DNA of 64,000 nucleotides, from NCBI GenBank assembly GCA_950295325.1, contig OX485805.1, positions 37,809,501 to 37,873,500 of the forward strand, in the 5' to 3' direction. The notes beneath the pieces are model-generated. The model did no database searches. It was not told the origin of the DNA and worked only from the letters and a program-made list of their open reading frames with translations. The DNA comes from Polytrichum commune. Its lineage: Eukaryota; Streptophyta; Polytrichopsida; Polytrichales; Polytrichaceae. Position numbers and translations under genes: made by a program. Below are positions 9,096 through 56,731 of the stretch, piece after piece (position 1 is the stretch's first letter; each line of letters opens with the position of its first letter).

Positions 9096-12027
9096 ATGGA
9101 AGGATCCAAGCCTTTTCATATTGTAGAGTCTCGGAGTTTGCCCGTACAAAATGGGGAGAAGAATATGTCGAAGATAGAAGAATTAAAAACTTCACCATCA
9201 GGTTCGTTTAAAGTTGGTGTAGGATACAAAGTTGATCATCATAAAGAGAAAGTTCACAGATTAACCCATTCAGGAGGGAGCAATGGCCGAAGTTTCGATT
9301 TGGAGGATATAGCTTCAGGATCAAATGGCTCTCACGTTACAAGCACAGAAAGGGCTTGCCGAGTTACAGTGGCTATTCTTGCTGCAAAAGACTTGAAAAG
9401 AAATGCTGCTGGGCCTGATGTAAGAGACCCTATCTTCAAAGTGAAAGTGGAGCAAGTTCTGAGGAAGTCGACGGACACGAAGAACGTTGTCAATGAGGTG
9501 CTTTATATAACATAACAATCTTGAATAAGGATCAAGTAGTTACAAAAATTCTGCGTTGTTTGAGCTGATTGTCCTCACCAAATTGTTATGCCATGTTTTA
9601 ATCTATTGGAAGAATCTCTTGTTCTTTAGTATCTGGCGCTGGTCTTAGAGTGTCATATAGTGAATTGACCATGTAATTGGTTCATAGAATGCACTAGCTG
9701 TAATTAATTTACTGGTACTTTTGCAGGAGGGATTATTGAATGTGAATCAAAGCTTCACTTTCGATGTAAGGGAACTGAAGACTGCTCAAATATCAGTGCA
9801 AGTCGTGGCAAGGGGAGTGCTGGGAATTGAAGAGGCCCTTGGGCAGATCAACAGTCTGTGTGTTCTGAACTTGCTGGAGGTATGAAGTTGTGCAGTTCAT
9901 TCTATCCTTTCCTTCCCATGTTTATTATCATCGACCTCGAAACTAACTAGAGCGGGTTTTTCAGTAAGGAATATCTGGTTTTTAACACGTCTAGACAATG
10001 GCGCGTTGGAATACTGTGTCGAAAGGTGGATGGACTGCCATGGTTATTGTTGATGTCAAGGACTTCTGAACAGAAAGTTGTTTTAATAATAATATAGTAT
10101 TGTGGGGGTATGCTGTATAAACTGTTGATTATACAGGAGTCTTTATTTTATTTCTAGAAGATTGACCTTTTGTATTTAGAGCTGTTAATATGCTATTTAT
10201 CCATCTTCAGGTTTTTTTTAAATGACACAGTGGTTTAAATCTCAATTTTGCAGGAGCAAGGTGGACGGAAGGATGTAGATTCCAAATGGTACGATCTCCA
10301 TTCCAAGAGTGGGAATCGATTAATGCCTGGAAAGCTGCATATGCAGATCTTGGTTGGTATGGCAGAGCCAGAGCAGATTATATCAGCATTTGTGGGAACC
10401 TGGAATGTTGGAAATGCTCGGCCTCCAGCAGATTTGTCCCCTTGGATGCCAAATGACAACTCTCATGAGATTGTAGCAATAGGCACTCAGGAATGTGACT
10501 ATCAACCCCGGGCACCATTTACAGAGTGCAGCAAGGATTGGACACACACTTTGAAGACCCACCTTGGAGAGCGTTATAAGCTGCTTCATGCAACAACACG
10601 GGGACAGATGCGCCTTGTGATCTTTGTTCGTGATGATGCTGAGAAGGCGATCTCTGAGGTGAACAGTGATAGTGAGGCAACTGGGGTAGGCCATGTGATG
10701 GCTAATAAAGGAGGGGTTTGCATAGCATTTAAGTTCTGGGACACAGGGGTGTGCTTTGTAAATTGCCATTTTGCTGCTCATGTTGGGCAGTGTGAAACTC
10801 GCAACAGCAATTACAGAACGATTGCTTCTTCAATACGAGTAGGACTTCCGGGTATGGATCTACTCAGTCAGTTTCACCATGTGTTTTGGCTTGGAGATCT
10901 GAATTACCGGCTGGACTTTGGAAAGGTCCATGAAAAGCAGGAGTTGACTCCAGAACGCCAATTCTGGGCTACAATTGTGAAACAAATACATGCAAACAGG
11001 TGGAAGGATCTCCTCAAGTACGATGAGCTTCGGAAGGAGAAAGCGGCATCACGAGTGTTTGCAGGTTTCAGAGAGGGAGACATATCATTCCCCCCCACTT
11101 TCAAAATGCAGAGGGATTTTCTTGATCATTATGATGAGAAGCGAATGCCTGGGTGGTGTGATCGTGTGCTCTGGAAGACCTTGCAAGGGTGCCAATGCAG
11201 CATCAACTCTTATTTCTCTGCTCCTAGTATCCTGACAAGTGATCACAAACCTGTGGGATCAACGTTCAAATTGACGACATATGCCCTACCTTCAACAACT
11301 GCAATTTCTGATGGCACTGATGAAGATGATAAAAGGTGACTAGTCATCTTCTACCATGTCATTGTGACATTCCATGGGAATCGTCTAGTTAAAAGTTGTA
11401 TATGTTTGCCTTTGGTGTTCATTAAGAGGTTTTATGCTCTTGGTTTTCTATTTGTATTCTGATGTTACAAGTTCTTGACACCACTTGTCTGATTGTGGTT
11501 ACTTGCACAGGTGGCACATCCGTTTTACATCCTTACGAGCAAAGAAATTGCGAGCCTCAGACATCAATGGCTTTTCAGATCCATATGTTTCCTTTGTTGG
11601 TCCAAACTTAATCCAAGAATTCCATTCAAAAGTGAAGCACCAGACTTTGAATCCTGTGTGGAATCCTCTGCTGGAACTGCCTACACTGGTATTGAGTACA
11701 TTTCCACTGCAACGTGTAGACAAGGAGTACTTACTGATTCGGATTCTAGACCACAACTCAGATGAAGATGCACTGGGCTATGGAGTGATTCCTTTGGGGC
11801 AGGCTGTTACCTGCTTCAAGAAGGGTATTGCAGAGGTAGCACACTTTAAGGTGAACCTTTTCCACCACGGGTTACCAGCTGGCACATTAGAGGGGGGTAT
11901 GAAGCTTACCTGGGAGAAAAACGTCATCAAAAGGAAGGGGTTCTCAGGAGACTTTGTGGGCCGGACAAGCAGCATAAAAGACTCACTGAAGAAGAAAATG
12001 TTTGTCAGAAGACTCGGTACTATATGA
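9096..12027 (+). CDS. inositol-polyphosphate 5-phosphatase with N- and C-terminal C2 domains
   Basis: Four exons join in frame: 9096-9497, 9727-9879, 10254-11335 and 11511-12027, all with GT-AG introns, giving 717 aa. Residues about 90-185 form a C2-like domain, 229-525 the IPPc catalytic domain and about 548-690 a second C2 domain (SDPYVSF, LNPVWNP); the tail is basic. All catalytic motifs are present: WNVGN (235-239), QECDY with Glu265, a NKGGV block, WLGDLNYRL with Asp400, SFPPTFK (about 463), WCDRVLW (about 486) and SDHKPV (514-519). The family removes the 5-phosphate from phosphoinositides or soluble inositol phosphates. The two C2 domains suggest membrane recruitment. Start: the first ATG in frame; an in-frame GTG lies at 9072. 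Seed-plant 5-phosphatases I know of have WD40 repeats or no extra domain, so this layout is notable. Substrate preference cannot be read from sequence. Confidence 0.93.
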
Positions 12028-47953: not shown

Positions 47954-49123
47954 GAACATCCTCGTCTCCTTTGAAGCTCTCGGGGTCTTGGTTCCTATGG
48001 CATTGGGTCTACACTATCGAGGACAATTGATAATCCCAAACATGGAGTAGCTCCAAAAACTAAGTTCTAGGGGCACAGGAACTAGGCCGGTGGCACAATG
48101 AGGAAACGTAGGCGGAGCCCTGGGCAAATAGGGATCTGTGCCATGAAGGGTGTTAGGAAAGTGATTAGCTTAGCAGAAGCGTAGTTTTGAGATTAGCTGG
48201 AGGTTTTTAGAGACAAGGACGTATTGGATCTGTATACAGAGCCTAGATCTAGAAGATTACGAATGCAGGTGGAAGTTAGGCGATTGCAGACGCACTGAGA
48301 TACCTAATCGGACGGATGCAGGCGACGCACAAGGAAGGGTGGAGATAACACAACCAAAACCAATGGGGGAGGGGCGACAGATGGCGACGTTCGTGGATAA
48401 AGTGCGGTCTGGTGGAGGGATGAGATTCGACCCCCTCCTCGAAGAAAAAGGGGATGGATAGCGGGGGAGGATCCGAAGCGTGATGAAGAAATGACGGAAG
48501 CTGTGATCGAAGCCCTTGCCGAAGTAAGTCAACAGATCTGGGAAGGCCAACTCAACCCTTTCAAAGAACAAGTTGGTGAGATTCTCCCAACAAACATGGA
48601 AAGAAACTTTAGTGGCTTCTTGGTTAGAAAGGATGCCATTGCCTTTAAAGTAGATTCGGTGAAAGTAAAAGCCCGCATTGCACTTTTGAAAGAACAACTT
48701 TTGATTGCAAAGTTTGTAGGCCCAAAACCTTCCTCCCAAGATCTGGAAAGATGGCTGCAAGATCTAAACCAAAAACTAAGAGGAAGTGAGTTAGACTTTT
48801 GTATGAATGTGGGTAAGGGGTTTTTCTTCCTCAAAGGACAAGATTCGGATGCACTTAACAATGCCTTGATGTTATCACCATACAAATCGAAATGGGGAAC
48901 ATGCATGATTTAAAGTTGGGTACCGGGATTCAATCCGGACAACCCTAGCAACCTTGCCTTCCCCACATGGGTTGCCTTGAGGAAACTCCCCTTTGAACAT
49001 CATGATCAAGCACTTGCCATAGCGGCAACATTAGGAGAGGTCATAGGCATAGACACAATGAATGAAACCGCCAAGGATCCTAGATTTTGTGTGAATCTCA
49101 TGGTTACCAAGGGGTGGGTGACA

Positions 49124-50618
49124 GATAGATAGATAGAAACTCCGGTCCCTTTTAGGGGCCGGCGTGAATAGAGTGTCCGTTCGTAATGCCAACAACCCGA
49201 TGCCCACAGGACATGGGGAAGTTGGGACAAAACTACTCTCCTCTTTCGAGGATGGACACTATAGTAACCGAGAAACAAATAACGTGGGCCGATCATGGCC
49301 CACGGCGGTGCATGCCTTTTAGGTATAATTAGTGTTTTTGTTATGAGAGTGAACGCCAAGTCATGATTCCTCGGTTGGTTGTGGGAGGATGTTTGAGTTA
49401 AGACGTTCCGGGTTCGATTTCAGTCGAGTCCGTATGATCGTCTAAAATGTAACGCGTGACTTGGTGCTGCAAGTGAGTAAAAGGCAGGAAATTTGTACCA
49501 ACCAACCGGCACCAATCCCTCATTCTGAGCTGTAAATATATACTAAATATTATATAAGTTTTTTGGGTTTTATGGAGGGTCTAAGTTTTGGGGGAGCGGT
49601 TGGTGGTTCTCAATTCCCCTCTTATGGAGGAGGATGGACATGGCATATTGTATTGCAATGGTATTAATGTTTTTAAAGGTATTTTTGATGGTAACCAGGG
49701 GTATTTTGAGATTTTCTTCTAGTATTTTCATAGATGGGATGTGGGCCGTAGCTCGGGCCCCAGCTGTGATGACAATAAGTGGTTCGATTTTCCATCCTCT
49801 GGAAGCGATACTCTCAATCAAAGGTTTGTATTTGTTGTTTTTTGCTTCTATTGTTTCTGGGGAAAATCTGTCGTTACAATATGTGAATTCAATAAATTGT
49901 ATGGTGAGGTTAGGGTCAATGTCAATGGGAGGGTCATTTTGATATGGTAATCCTTTAACGCAAAGTATATCAGGTCGAAATCTTGCGTTGCAATGACATC
50001 TTTGTGTGTTACATGTGCAGGGGAGTAGCCATTTGGGGACTGTATTTTCTTGGGGGTTATTATTGAAGGTACCGGCATTCATGAGAGTAAAACATCGGGA
50101 TTTTTTGGACGAGATTAGAAGCTTCCTAATTTCTCCGACTGCTTTGTTATGTCTTTTAATTCGTAGTGAGTGTATATGTTGTTGGTTGCATTTCAGTAGA
50201 ACATGTAGCCAAGTGTCTGGATCGTTTGAATTGCATATAGGGCATGTGATAGAGGGGTACCTCTGGTGACCGAAGAACATTTGTTTTCTAGCATTACCCA
50301 TGTATGTTCCTGTGCGGAATTTAATAAGGCAAGATTTTTGTTTGTCTGTGATTAAGGGATTTGTCCAGAATTCGTTGGACAGTTCTTTGTCAATGTCTAT
50401 ATTTTCTGTCCATTTACACGTGTTGGGGGTTTGTGTGGCCATGATTGCTATATTGGTTTCCCTATCATATTTTTTAATTTGTTTTTCTAAGAATCTTACT
50501 GGGCCTTTGTCTGGGACGTCTGCCATCGAGGCCCAGACGTCCTTTTGGTAATAGTACGGGATGGCGTGGGCATGTTCGTATGGGTGGATGGCAATTCTGT
50601 GTTCTAATTCTAACCCGT
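49124..50618 (-). mobile_element. 5'-truncated RLE-type LINE nested in ORF1
   Basis: Inserted on the minus strand with an exact 11-bp target duplication, GGTGGGTGACA (49113-49123 and 50619-50629). The 3' end (49124) is a CTAT microsatellite tail, GATAGATAGATAG on the plus strand. Next to it CCGGTCCCTTTTAGGGGCCGG forms, apart from one wobble pair, a stem-loop. The 5' end is cut inside the coding region. A 77-bp copy of the same 3' end lies at 38049. Confidence 0.92.
49570..50526 (-). CDS. C-terminal part of a reverse transcriptase: zinc finger and restriction-like endonuclease
   Basis: This 318-codon frame has no stops. It stays open upstream to the truncation point at 50618, so about 348 residues remain of a larger polyprotein. 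Features in order: C-X2-C-X9-H-X4-C (CPICNSNDPDTWLH then VLLKC), the RHN motif (RIKRHNKAVGEIRKLL), and RPDIL. These are followed by FIEFTYCNDRF and EAKNNKYKPLIESIASRGWK. This CCHC, RHN, RPD, D/E and K order is characteristic of the endonuclease of R2, CRE, NeSL and Dualen-type LINEs, which nicks the target DNA. It is not the APE type used by the surrounding LINE. The RT domain was lost by truncation. The first ATG is arbitrary. The intact frame implies a recent insertion. Confidence 0.82.
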   Translation of the reverse strand: MADVPDKGPVRFLEKQIKKYDRETNIAIMATQTPNTCKWTENIDIDKELSNEFWTNPLITDKQKSCLIKFRTGTYMGNARKQMFFGHQRYPSITCPICNSNDPDTWLHVLLKCNQQHIHSLRIKRHNKAVGEIRKLLISSKKSRCFTLMNAGTFNNNPQENTVPKWLLPCTCNTQRCHCNARFRPDILCVKGLPYQNDPPIDIDPNLTIQFIEFTYCNDRFSPETIEAKNNKYKPLIESIASRGWKIEPLIVITAGARATAHIPSMKILEENLKIPLVTIKNTFKNINTIAIQYAMSILLHKRGIENHQPLPQNLDPP

Positions 50619-52462
50619 GGTGGGTGACAAGTATAGATCTGGAATCGGAGGATGGAACACTCCCACTCCAAAAAGTTTTAGTGGATTATGATAGGCTTCC
50701 GATGAGATGCAAAGCTTGTCAAAGCTGGAAGCATAGAGTTAGAGATTGTAATGAGACCCAAAAGAGGTATGGAAGGGGTGGAAGGAAACCAATGCATGCA
50801 CCGTACACATTCCAACAAGAAAAAGGGAAAAACATAGTTGTTGATGAAGACGGCTTTCAACAAGTTAAAAATAGAAAAAACACAAGAAGGAACATCTTCG
50901 ATATGGTTAATGATGAAGCGAGATCCAACGCTTATGCATTGGTGGAGGAAGTTCGGGCAGCCAGGCGTAGAAGCAAGCCACAGATGGGAGAGGGGAGCAG
51001 AAGAGGAGACGGCCAGGAAGACCGAGAGGAAGGAATCAGGCCGTATGAACAAGCTATAGACACGGTGATGCGACGAATGAGTGAGGAGCTGGCCGAATCT
51101 CCTCGGAGGGTAGAAGCAAATGCCTCTGCAGAAAGAGGCCGGGAGGGCCAGACAAAACTCACATCGGGAGAAAATGGTCGGGAGGCAAGGCCGGAAGAAA
51201 AAGAGCAGGGCGGGGAACCAAACATGGCAGGAGATTCGGTGAACTATGAGACGGAGGAAGGTGAGCTGATGCTGGATCGGAGAGAAGAACATCAAGAAAG
51301 GCCATTACCAGGAGGTAGAGGCGATCCAGCATCAGCAATGATGTGGTCACCCAGGAAAGTTGCAGGCAACAAAAGACCACTAGAAACAACTGAAGCGGAA
51401 CTCTCGGAAGAAGAGGGGGAAGAAACCGGCAGTGAAGAGGCCAAGGCCGAAATAGGAACAGAGAGATTGATGAGTGAGGCGGGGACCGACACAGTCCTAG
51501 ACCAGGAATTAGAAGAGCAGCAAGAGGTTGCGAACGCCGAAGAACAGGTGGGAGAAGCAGCACCAAACCTGCAACCAACATACACGGATGGAGCTCAGCC
51601 GCAAACAGATAGGGAGAAGACAGGGGAGGAGGCGGTCGAGCGAGGTCGGAGAACCGGCGGCGAGGTCAGACCGCTGGAGGGCAGTGAGAGGGGCTGGGAG
51701 GTGACTGGGAGGGGAGGAAGTAGCGAGAGAGAGGACGAGGCTGAGGCAGAGGCAGAACCAGCAACCCGAGAAGAGCGGTCGCCCTCCCAGAACCTAGAAG
51801 GCCAACGGCCACCTCGGGGACCCCGCTCACAAAGCAACCTAGGGGGAGCTGTACCAGCCAAGGAAGCGGACAACGGCAACCCAGCCGACACAACAAAGGA
51901 ACTAAGGGGCAAGGGGTCAACAGAAAACTCTAAGGGGCAGAGGCAGGGGAGATGGAATGGAGAATCCCACAGCAAACTGACCTACACGGAGGCGAGTATC
52001 TGGGAAAAACAAATGTGGGAGATCGAACCAACCAACTACCGTGCCATCAACAAGGCCCCGAGACTTGGTAAGTGGTCGGACTCCTACCCCAACAACGACA
52101 TAGACCGTATTGGTAGTTCATACCCGGATGCCGAGGGTCCACATACTAATAGACCAATGGATGTAGTTTGGGAGACACAACCAATCCCCAAAACCACTCA
52201 TAAGGGAAGCATGTATATAGATATAATGGCAAGCATTGGCCTAGATAGCCCCAACACATCCACAAAGACTAGAGGAGGGGAGAATAAAGAGCATGTCCAA
52301 GGTGCATCATTGACTAATACACCTATCCGGAATAATGCATCTAGCCTTATAGCCCTTGGGAAGCACATTATCACCCCAAGACAAGGAAAACTATGGGGGT
52401 AGATACCAATCCTCACTAAAGGGTGAAAGGAGGACGATCACATTTCTTCAAAATCTTGGTCT

Positions 52463-55400
52463 ATGAAGTGGAATCTAATTACACACAATATTAGGGGTCT
52501 AAATGATCCGGAGAGTATTGCAAAAGAGAGAGGTTTCCTTAGCATGATAGTACCAAAAGTGGACGTGGTAATGATCCAAGAGCACAAACTTAGAGGAAGA
52601 GCATTGGAGAATATAGGATCAAGGCTTTTGCCCGGATGTGCTAGTTGGGTTTTGGAAGCCGCTCCGGGGGAAAGGAGTTGGCTTAACCCTAATGCCGCCG
52701 GGAAAGGTGGAGTAGGCATTTTACTAGCTAACAAATACGCTAAGCTTGTTACGGCCACCGGGGCCCTATATGAAAATAGGATAGTGTGGATCAAATTGGA
52801 AGGAGTGGAAGGGGGGAATATTGGGCTAGCTTGTGTATATGCACCTAATATACCTACGGAAAGGAGACATTTATGGCATATATTATTAGACGCGTTCCCC
52901 AAAGATTGCGAATGGATTATTGGGGGAGACTTCAACATGACCGAAAGACCGGAGGACAAGTCACACGGATGTGGGAGAACCATTAGTGACTTGGAGAGTG
53001 ACACTTGGAAGGAATTTTTAAATTCCCTACAAGTAAGGGATGAATTCCTACACCAAGGGGGCCCGCGATTTACTTGGGACAACGGGCAAAAGGGAGTAAG
53101 AAGGAGACTAGCTAGGCTAGATAGATTCTACACACCATCCCAAAGTCAACTCAATACTCATATTACCTCCTACTTTATCCACGGATATACCGTAGGATTG
53201 GACCATGCTCCGGTTCACTTAGAGGTAAATATTGGTAGTGGAGAAGAACGGAAAGGGGCATTTAAGTGGAATACGGCATACCTTAAAGGAGAGCTAAGGG
53301 GGAAACTAGAGGATAGGTGGGTGAGCTTACCGGAGGATGCCAACTTCTTCCACAAACTAAGAAACATCTCAAGATTCTATAAACAAGCGTGCAAACAAAA
53401 AACAAAGGAGAATAGGAGACTAGAGCTAGACACAAAGGCCAAGCTAGAAGTAGCTATAGCCAACCTACATGAGGATGTCAATAGCTTTGAGAAACAAGGG
53501 GAGGTAAATAGACTTAAGAATACCATAGATAGCATAGAAACTAGGAAAGCTATAGGGGCCGCCATTAGGTCTAGGGTAAAATGGCAACAAGTAGGTGATA
53601 GATGCTCCAAAGAGTTTTTTAAGTCCGTACGTCAAAAAAACACACATATGGTAATTACGGAACTCAAGGATAAGCATGGACGGATTTTTACCAAAAAGGA
53701 GGACCTAGGTAGAATTTGCCAAGACTTTTACCAAGACCTATATAGACATAGGGACATTGAGGAGGAGGCACTTCTAGAAGTAATGGAGGGGGTACCGGCT
53801 ACATTTACCCCCGCCATGAACGAGGAGCTAGTTAAGGAGGTTACGGAAAGGGAGCTACGGGGTGCGGTAAATTCAATGGCTAAGGGAAAGGCGCCGGGAC
53901 ATGACGGCATCCCGGTAGAGTTCTACCAAAAGATGTGGCCAACTATTGGTAAGGACTTCCACCGAATGATTATGCAAAGCATGGATGAGGGGAAACTATA
54001 TGAGGGGGTTACAAGAGGGTTGATTAGTCTAATACCTAAGGAGGGGGACGCCAAAGACCTCAACTATTGGAGGCCAATCACCCTCCTTATGGTGATCTAT
54101 AAAATCTTTGCCAAGACTCTTCAAATTAGACTCCAACCCATGTTAAGGGACGTCATTAGCCCGGAGCAAACGGCGTTCTTACCTCTTAGGTTTATACTAG
54201 ATAATATTGTTCTTACCCAAGAGACCCTTCATTGGGCCAAAACTTCTAAGCAACCCTCAATCTTTCTAAAACTAGACTTCTCTAAAGCATATGACAAGGT
54301 GTCTTGGCGCTTTCTCTTTTGTGTAATGAAGGCTATGAATATTGATGAGGTGTTCATAAGATGGGTAAAACTACTTTTTACCCATGCATCCGCGGCGGTT
54401 AACCTTAATGGTAACCCCGGGGGGAACTTCAAAATTGAAAGGGGAGTGAAACAAGGGTGTCCACTAGCCCCCTACCTTATCCTAATTGTGGGTGAGATTC
54501 TTACCCACGTAATAAAAAAGGCGGTGGCGGAGGGTAGGCTCAAAGGAGTTTACCTACCCGGGGGGAAAAAGCAACAAAGCATATCCCAATATGCGGATGA
54601 TTCCTCATTCATGGTAAGAGGCACCAAAGAGGACGTAGACGAGCTTGTGAGGTTGCTTGAAACATTTAGCAAGGCGTCCGGAATGGAGATCAATTGGGAG
54701 AAGTCGAGCGCTTATTGGTTCGACAAATACACTCACAAGCCGGATTGGCTTCTCGGCTACAATTGGAAATGGGCGGAGGAAGGCGACCTCTCCAAATTGC
54801 TAGGTACACCTTTTGGCCTAAATCTCAACACTAGAAATATTGACCAATTTCTTTATAACAAAATAAAAAAGAAGTTAGAGTATTGGAGTGGCATGAAGTT
54901 AACCCTAGCCGGTAGAATTGTAATATGTAACCAAATGCTACTCTCAACACTAATATGGTTCTTTATCACGGTATGGGGAGGGTCCAACAAGATCTTAAGG
55001 AAAATTCGGGGGGCAATTAGGAATTACATGTGGTCCGGCAAGGAGCAACTAATCCGGACTAGGGTTAGTTGGCAAGAGTGTTGTAGAAAGAAGAAATATG
55101 GAGGGTTGGGCCTTGTAGACCCGGAAGAAGCTAAAACTAGCCTCTTGTGCAAGTGGATAGTCAAAGCAATGGAACCCGGAGAATCCAACCTCCAAATCAT
55201 GCTAAGGTATAGGCTTGCAAGATTTAACCCACAAAGAGGACGGAGTTGGGGAGTGGACCTTGAATGGTTCACTAGCAAACAACATCAAGGGTTCTCCGGG
55301 TCTAAAGTGTGGGGCCACATTAGTAAGGCATGGAAATGCATGTCAAAGAGCATTTACCAACTCCCGCCACGCACTAGGATGGAGCTTCTACACTCTAACA

Positions 55401-56731
55401 TTTGGTGGTTGGACGGGGTCGAGCTACTCAAAAAGGGCTTCCCATATACTAAGGGCTTGGAGCTCTACCGCCAAGGCATTAGGAGCGTGGACGATGTGTG
55501 GGACAACGGTAAAAAATAATTCCTAACTTGGGCCGAAGCACAAGAGAAGTTCCAACTCAAACCAACCGACGAGCGTGATTGGGAGGGAATTACGAGTAAG
55601 CTCTCGGAGGAGTGGAGAGGGAAGCTTGAAGATGACTCGGACGACACCCACCCCGGAATGTGGCTTGGACTATATGAGATGGGCAAGGAGGACCCCACGC
55701 TAGTGGTAAGATGCGAGTCGGAGTTTACCCCCCCTTGCTTCCAACTCTATACTTTGACCTTACCCATTCCATCCAAATGTTTTACCGTAGGCACCTACTC
55801 TAGATGCCTTAGAGAATGGGAACATCCGGAAGGAGAGATTGAAGGTCACTTCCATGAGGTCAAAATTATTTACACCAATAGAGGAGCTAAAAAAGAAGGA
55901 GAAGAAGTGAGGGAAGAGGTTATTTTCTTCTACGGGAAAGTGGCCACTCTTTCTTGGGACCCGGATAGGTGGAGGTGGGGAGATGGTGGCCGGTTTCTAG
56001 ATTACACCACAAAGAAAGGAAGAGACATTCTTACTAGTAGAAGTCAAGGCTCCTCACGGGTGGCGGACAAGTGGCAAGGATATCTACCGGGCAACTATAG
56101 ATTCCAATGGTCTCAAGTGTGGGACTCGAACCGCTCCGGCAAGGAAGCGGCTTTCACTTGGTCGATTTGGCATAAGGCGGTCGCGGTTAATGAATGGAGG
56201 GCACGGATTGCCCCGGCATCCATTTCAAAACAATGCATTTTTTACCTCCCCAATACTAGTGAATCGGTTAAACACAAGTTTTGGGATTGCATCCAAGCTA
56301 GGAGAGCGTGGAGGTGGGCCACCTACATTATGCAAGAACTTTGTGGGGTGAGAACGGGCAACTATGATTGTTTTAATTGGAAACAAACTCTCTTTGGGGA
56401 AAGACTTCCCAAGAAGTATGGCCCCAAAATTAAAATTTGGCACCTTCTTAGGGGCATCACGCTTTGGGCCATTTGGATTGAACGGAATGATAGGGTCTTC
56501 AACCAAGAACAATGGCATGAAACACGACTCAAACACCACGTTTGGGACGAACTTATCCTCTACGCCAAGACGGCGTGGGAACGGGTGCTCAAGAATATCA
56601 AGATTAGTGCTTTCTCGGCTTTGGCGTTGCTCCAAGGGTTTGACAAGACTTGGGGGGCTAGGAATGTTCTTTGTAGAAGAAACAACCTCCACATTGAGTG
56701 GAATTGGAAAAAAAGTAGCTATTTTAGGTAG
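52463..56731 (+). pseudogene. LINE ORF2: AP-endonuclease, reverse transcriptase, zf-RVT; one in-frame stop
   Basis: A 1018-codon frame to 55519, then the same frame continues to 56731 after a single TAA (55517-55519). Residues 1-240 are the AP-like endonuclease (HNIRGLND, QEHK, CVYAPN, GGDFNM, LDHAPV). About 490-780 is the RT: LISLIPKEGDAKDLNYWRPI, KLDFSKAYDKVSW, GVKQGCPLAP and YADD at 710-713. LLGTPFGLNL, KKLEYWSGMKLTLAGR and YGGLGL follow. Past the stop lies the zf-RVT domain (FTWSIWHKAV, KHKFWDC). The catalytic residues are intact; the lone stop removes the last ~400 residues. It would nick DNA and reverse transcribe element RNA. The copy is young but probably dead. Confidence 0.93.

Follow-up and report, generated by a model that had tools for sequence, protein, structure and literature searches.

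The window, a stretch of 64,000 nucleotides from the moss Polytrichum commune, contains a LINE fragment of 1,495 bp (49124–50618, minus strand) that lies inside ORF1 of an L1-type LINE on the plus strand. The host element comprises ORF1 sequence to the left of the insertion (48401–49123) and, in an unchanged frame, to its right (50630–52399), an ORF2 with APE and RT (52427–55516), and a 3′ part (55520–56728) with a zf-RVT-like match of 3.3e-5 (24.9 bits, below the cut-off of 27.5 bits). Host ORF2 matches RVT_1 (3.6e-36) and Exo_endo_phos (1.5e-9) in Pfam, its best PDB match is LINE-1 ORF2p (7.8e-48), and a Pfam scan of the host element gives no RLE or PCIF1-like match. With two ORFs, APE and RT, it is one of the plant L1 LINEs. 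When the flanks are joined, host ORF1 reads through the junction in frame. A genome search with this joined flank gave 28 matches, two of them the window's own halves. Among the others are host copies without the insertion, one 97% identical over 292 of 294 bases (C3:2934756–2935047) and one 91% identical over 269 bases. An older stop stands in the same frame at codon 171 (48911–48913), so host ORF1 was already broken upstream of the insertion. The longest word common to both junctions, GGTGGGTGACA (11 bp), is exact on the left (49113–49123) and on the right (50619–50629). The initial annotation had proposed an APE-type host, host codons continuing in frame on either side of the insert and an exact 11-bp target-site duplication, and all three proposals hold.

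On the minus strand, the fragment consists of the restriction-like endonuclease (RLE) region of an ORF2, cut just after RNase H (49570–50618; frame open over 49573–50618, stop at 49570–49572), followed by the 3′ UTR and tail of a 5′-truncated copy (49124–49569). The latter is 97.8–100% identical to the 3′ ends of loci L001–L010, of which L001 is the window copy itself, and terminates in a (CTAT)n tail (49124–49136) whose unit number varies between copies. Because the truncation point lies just after RNase H, the window cannot show the parent element's APE, RT and RNase H. Antisense to the 3′ UTR, stretches resembling tRNA A and B boxes (cctcggttgg, gggttcgatttc) can be seen by eye at 49365–49430 (plus strand). 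This segment could be a tRNA-derived piece within the LINE 3′ UTR; ARAGORN finds no tRNA in this UTR. The 3′-terminal 97 bases fold no more stably than shuffled sequences (z −0.42).

The minus-strand frame carries a CCHC zinc knuckle of the form C-x2-C-x9-H-x4-C (codons 123–141 in the first row of alignment A2; 50188–50244), followed by RHN (codons 153–155; 50146–50154), RPD (codons 212–214; 49969–49977) and KxxKY (codons 257–261; 49828–49842) motifs, all placed by motif alignment. The acidic E of the PD-(D/E)xK-type core, within FIEF, is placed at codon 241 (49888–49890) by alignment and model. A2 comprises 16 sequences, namely the window and 15 of 19 loci (L044, L046, L048 and L052 were left out for stops or broken frames), and across their 63–98% identity the equivalents of CCHC, RHN, RPD, E and K..KY are invariant, except for the R/K preceding PD. 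CCHC, HN, PD and K..KY are found in all 19 loci searched and the E motif in 17, the exceptions being L044 and L048, both frame-broken near the E position. The predicted RLE structure has a mean pLDDT of 56.7, with blocks 151–180 at 68–88 and 211–320 at 66–91 and the remainder mostly below 50, and its secondary structure follows a helix-strand-strand-strand-helix-strand order. R2 proteins make up the top six Foldseek matches (best 6.2e-5; query TM-score 0.32–0.34) and the top seven VIA rows (Z 9.2–10.3). The best VIA match outside R2 is to bunyavirus polymerases with a cap-snatching endonuclease (Z 8.4), which we take to belong to the same nuclease superfamily as RLE. Since the RLE profile matches no PDB sequence at E ≤ 10, the assignment rests on motifs and fold. 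Together these bear out the proposal that the intact frame and its motifs encode an RLE, and the structure prediction suggested as a check of the PD-(D/E)XK fold points the same way. All NCBIfam matches fall far below curated cut-offs; ORF2 hits only the group II intron RT and exonuclease III families, and the window frame only two families that are unrelated. No relatives were found with the RLE alignment in viral_contigs and genome_contigs, or with the PCIF1-like alignment in viral_contigs; these are viral, bacterial and archaeal collections, and their silence therefore says little.

The assembly (408 Mb in 64 contigs, seven of them of 42–78 Mb) holds many relatives of the window frame. A genome search gave 5,751 first-look candidates, and all 119 scored copies match at 89–100% identity. 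Of these, 118 lie on the seven large contigs and one on C36, so contamination of the assembly, which had been named as a potential refutation, is rejected. As relatives with 99% identical protein exist, the insertion can be considered recent. Copies of the window's family end in (CTAT)n tails of variable n. The 3′ flanks of all nine distinct copies among L001–L010 (L004 is the same copy as L009) differ from one another, and those of seven further copies, one of which (C2:1244312) equals L002, are likewise unrelated. Insertion is thus not site-specific, and nothing like the fixed single-gene site of R2 or Utopia is seen in the copies examined; recency and freedom from an rDNA-type site were both anticipated by the initial annotation. 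Six copies are flanked by duplications of 11–13 bp (window, 11; full-length copies, 12 and 12; further copies, 12, 11 and 13), although one or two bases in some of these words may be tail. Three of the seven further copies have such a duplication, one has an ambiguous 11-bp word and three have none; in the mismatched-pair control for the permissive search, 2 of 42 reached at least 10 bp.

The recommended search for full-length copies succeeded, with 3 of the 119 scored copies lying within 2,625-codon open frames. One copy (L010+L036) measures 11,965 bp between 12-bp duplications, TCCATTCTTAAC, and another (L009+L035) is flanked on each side by the 12-bp word TTTGAATTAGGA and extends further at its 5′ end. 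Upstream of ORF1, L035 contains tandem repeats of 18/54 bp and 48 bp (1187–1369 and 1878–1976). Intact elements are ∼12–12.5 kb long with two overlapping open frames: ORF1 has 747 codons from stop to stop, with its first Met at codon 15, and ORF2, which overlaps it by 22 bp and has its first Met at codon 50, has 2,625–2,924 codons. ORF2 is unbroken in three of four copies from other families (L013, 2,663 codons; L011, 2,919; L012, 2,924) and broken in L014. L012 and L013 form a single family (99%), and ORF2 identity between families is 57–87%.

ORF2 opens with a variable leader and a 2A-like motif. A conserved N-terminal segment comes next, then APE and RT, then a PCIF1-like domain, and finally RNase H and RLE; the 3′ UTR that follows ends in the (CTAT)n tail. 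In each of the four copies scanned for APE (L009, L011, L012 and L013, from three families), Exo_endo_phos_2 (best 6.3e-8) and Exo_endo_phos (best 4e-7) match upstream of RT among hits listed at E ≤ 10, those of L009 (0.00019 and 0.0037, respectively) falling below both cut-offs. L010 also carries APE motifs. Neither family is listed in a Pfam scan of whole ORF2, and the APE profile finds only weak exonuclease III matches in the PDB (E 0.0057). The RT matches RVT_1 at 1.1e-29; R2 is its best PDB match (1e-29), and L1 does not appear there at E ≤ 1. RNase H is recognized as PF00075 (7.3e-13). Between RT and the PCIF1-like domain, a chromo-like stretch (L009:2913–3503 and its equivalents in L012 and L013) remains sub-threshold (E 0.07–0.17) in these three of five copies scanned and is not listed in L011 and L014; we do not claim it as a domain. 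For families 1 and 3, dN/dS is 0.58 in the leader, 0.08 in APE, 0.08 in RT, 0.09 in the PCIF1-like domain, 0.06 in RNase H and 0.11 in RLE, and only this pair gives precise values because synonymous sites are near saturation in all others. Over family pairs, RT ranges from 0.06 to 0.09, RLE from 0.11 to 0.15 (one pair was not computable) and the leader before the 2A motif from 0.51 to 0.58 (three pairs). APE, RT, the PCIF1-like domain, RNase H and RLE are all under purifying selection.

The 2A-like motif is GDIEPNPGP at ORF2 codon 277, GDIETNPGP in family 2 and GDIKPNPGP in family 3. ORF2 thereby carries the form D(V/I)ExNPGP, which we take to be the 2A-like consensus, and family 3 deviates from it by an E-to-K replacement that may weaken skipping there. 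This lysine, together with the Met directly after the motif (NPGP-M), would suit an incidental motif, with ORF2 made as one polyprotein or via reinitiation at the internal ATG that follows. Such a reading has some merit but is the less probable one: amino-acid identity between families 1 and 2 rises sharply from 25% before the motif to 52% directly after it, and the coding pattern G-D-I-E-x-N-P-G-P has 255 exact sites against none for a reversed-pattern control, in a genome-wide count over all element kinds in which sites related by descent are not independent. Two 2A coding sites lie 800 bp apart (C2:36080494 and C2:36081295) upstream of an RVT_1 frame of 2,131 codons (C2:36083800), and further LINE families of the moss may likewise carry 2A motifs. 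2A-bearing LINEs such as trypanosome L1Tc are APE-type, whereas the present element has two endonucleases. What they have in common is a 2A-like motif in frame with LINE proteins, as described for L1Tc and others (PMC4981915).

The domain between RT and RNase H matches PF12237 (PCIF1) at 3.6e-10 in the first ORF2 and is listed at E ≤ 1 in all 17 members of alignment A1 (best 1.3e-13), the first of which scores 44.1 bits (cut-off, 31.1). A1 represents 17 of 25 loci (L009 and L011–L034), those with stops or frame breaks having been left out. A genome search for PF12237 placed 150 of 150 scored places above the curated cut-off (697 first-look candidates), and the same family is absent from 14 control genomes. 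The two best entries in a PDB profile search are PCIF1, both of them weak matches (0.0079 and 0.054). The AlphaFold model of the domain is poor (mean pLDDT 48), but Foldseek places human and zebrafish PCIF1 on top (5.6e-4 each), and the first six VIA matches are PCIF1 entries (Z 7.1–7.5, rmsd ∼8, 189–207 residues aligned), followed by RlmJ at Z 6.1; VIA scores below 8 would not stand alone as fold evidence. FxSP and FGS stretches are common to the domain and PCIF1. The domain is a homologue of PCIF1 (CAPAM), the cap-adenosine N6-methyltransferase, differing from it in being fused within a LINE polyprotein and in its catalytic motif. In the 35 loci aligned to PCIF1 (34 distinct copies, L004 being L009), the equivalent of NPPF is AHPHN in 21, AHPHT in 8 and another close variant in 6, such that the catalytic Asn is His in every locus and NPPF occurs in none. 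Because of this replacement, the domain is probably a repurposed methyltransferase fold. Its core has a dN/dS of 0.09–0.18 in five family pairs, like RLE and near RT, and these low values imply that the domain is maintained for some role, which is probably not PCIF1 chemistry.

A piece of zebrafish PCIF1 searched against the genome matched 123 of 125 candidate places (27.7 bits at best, 30–42% identity), in a search that could miss intron-split exons. Two of these 123, L058 and L059, were examined as loci and both have the His variant, and a host PCIF1 gene is rejected as the source of the matches, which does not imply that the moss has no such gene. The domain might instead still be catalytically active, as an N6-adenosine methyltransferase whose motif IV is altered and which marks element RNA, cap-adjacent or internal, or target DNA. 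Purifying selection, the shared FxSP and FGS stretches and the order of fold matches would agree with this, with PCIF1 first and RlmJ, an N6-adenine methyltransferase, next in the VIA results and Foldseek giving the same order apart from one unrelated row among those of RlmJ; yet the substitution of the NPPF Asn by His throughout the 35 loci makes continued catalysis unlikely. Returning to a repurposed fold, we tentatively suggest, at somewhat less than even odds, that land-plant dual-endonuclease LINEs captured a PCIF1-type fold as a cap- or RNA-recognition module, or as an altered-motif RNA methyltransferase, by which their own RNA could be told from host mRNA. If true, a recognition module of this kind would be an alternative to poly(A) or 3′-UTR recognition, and a retrotransposon would have a host epitranscriptome writer domain built into its integration enzyme. 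A paper on N6-adenosine methyltransferases places PCIF1 in LECA, and the passages of it that were available do not mention transposons (PMC8868631).

The combination of APE and RLE in a single element defines Dualen (PMC4640811; PMC3636483), and the moss element combines both with RT and RNase H, as do Dualen/RandI elements of Chlamydomonas and its relatives. We assign it to the Dualen/RandI type because its full-length relatives carry an N-terminal APE besides the RLE, and it would be expected to work like Dualen; the class is domain-based, and the RT tree was built without a Dualen reference. This unrooted nine-sequence tree, comprising three R2 sequences, LINE-1, the window L1 and four of the moss elements, separates the elements, R2 and L1 into three groups, with element RTs about equally distant from R2 (22–26% identity) and L1 (20–26%). 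In contrast to plant L1 LINEs, the dual-endonuclease element thus has an RT of a separate lineage, in addition to the RLE and PCIF1-like domain that the host L1 lacks in the Pfam scan. A cysteine protease was reportedly described in Chlamydomonas Dualen by Kojima and Fujiwara in 2005 and is not known to define the group; Pfam scans of the moss ORF2 and ORF1 (two pieces) list no peptidase family. The moss element also differs in its land-plant host and, when set beside algal Dualen by descriptions only, in its PCIF1-like domain between RT and RNase H and its 2A-like motif. Considered together, these data are best explained by a Dualen/RandI-type non-LTR retrotransposon of ∼12–12.5 kb, present in the window as a copy that would have been 5′-truncated during target-primed reverse transcription, a reading to which we give a probability of about 0.82.

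Whether the lineage descended within plants is a separate matter. Its record is patchy, with Dualen reported in volvocine green algae (PMC8226300) and only L1 and RTE given for land plants in a 2022 review (PMC9033089), a pattern that would fit horizontal acquisition from another eukaryote, such as an alga. We consider transfer distinctly improbable, since the presence in one genome of several families that are 57–87% identical suggests long residence, and the viral, bacterial and archaeal collections offer no outside relatives for comparison. Far weaker is the APE-free RLE-type LINE (R2, NeSL, HERO or Utopia-like) of the initial annotation, which agrees with a window copy showing only the RLE end and with an RT closest to R2 in the PDB and an RLE fold that is closest to R2 as well, but is effectively eliminated, for the window family by the APE of L009 (whose RLE is 98% identical to the window's) and beyond it by the APE upstream of RT in L011, L012 and L013 and the APE motifs of L010. 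What survives of that annotation is the presence of an RLE, and what falls is its status as sole endonuclease, APE being found in four of four copies from three families. It had also held that full-length copies with an N-terminal APE and no RLE would overturn it; the APE is there, but so is the RLE. Among the clades it listed, Dualen, named in passing, fits, and R2, CRE, NeSL and Utopia do not.

R2 elements insert at a single rDNA site and, to our knowledge, have no APE, RNase H or PCIF1-like domain. The moss element resembles R2Bm and R2Tg in its RLE fold, its CCHC-RHNK block and its RT, for which R2 is closest in the PDB, but it has all three of these domains, and the flanks differ between its copies. 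Dualen has been cited as evidence that APE-type LINEs arose via replacement of RLE by APE (PMC4640811). In the open-licence literature we found neither a LINE described with a PCIF1 domain nor a land plant described with Dualen elements, a scope that does not extend to the Repbase and RepeatMasker libraries, where prior annotation of the element is possible. The elements of a further source, whose available part does not give their domains, could be related to the present ones (PMC7466625).

LINEs integrate via target-primed reverse transcription. We infer transposition, 2A activity and a function for the PCIF1-like domain along the following lines. Ribosome skipping at the 2A-like motif would free the enzyme from its unconserved leader. 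The PCIF1-like domain would no longer methylate but bind element RNA, perhaps at a capped 5′ end. Of the two endonucleases, APE and RLE, one would nick first while the tail pairs with the target, and the second nick would fall to the other. As the genome holds numerous recent copies with both endonucleases, some of which retain unbroken frames, one can ask directly which nuclease makes which cut, and a conserved PCIF1-like domain without the catalytic Asn raises a testable question about how a LINE uses a cap-methyltransferase fold. Both kinds of LINE endonuclease together with a PCIF1-like domain form a combination for which we found no published land-plant description in the open-licence literature. 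The element would also widen the land-plant LINE repertoire past the L1 and RTE types recorded in the 2022 review (PMC9033089).

Elsewhere in the window, a plus-strand frame at 10239–12024 matches Exo_endo_phos2 (1.1e-67), presumably of the inositol phosphatase kind, followed by a C2 domain (7.9e-11), and is probably a host gene. On the minus strand, 59338–60596 matches DUF4218 (6.9e-30) and, weakly, DUF4216, families that we take to be linked to CACTA-type transposons, and is probably a CACTA-type remnant. In the genome, one contig with an intact rbcL frame is probably plastid. A LEAFY fragment (L040) has 4bhk as its nearest PDB entry (173 bits), followed by 2vy1 (156 bits), which we take to be LEAFY of the moss Physcomitrium and of Arabidopsis, respectively. 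Where 4bhk has Asp, this fragment has His (MRHYVHC versus MRDYVHC), at what is presumably the residue that sets the DNA-binding type.
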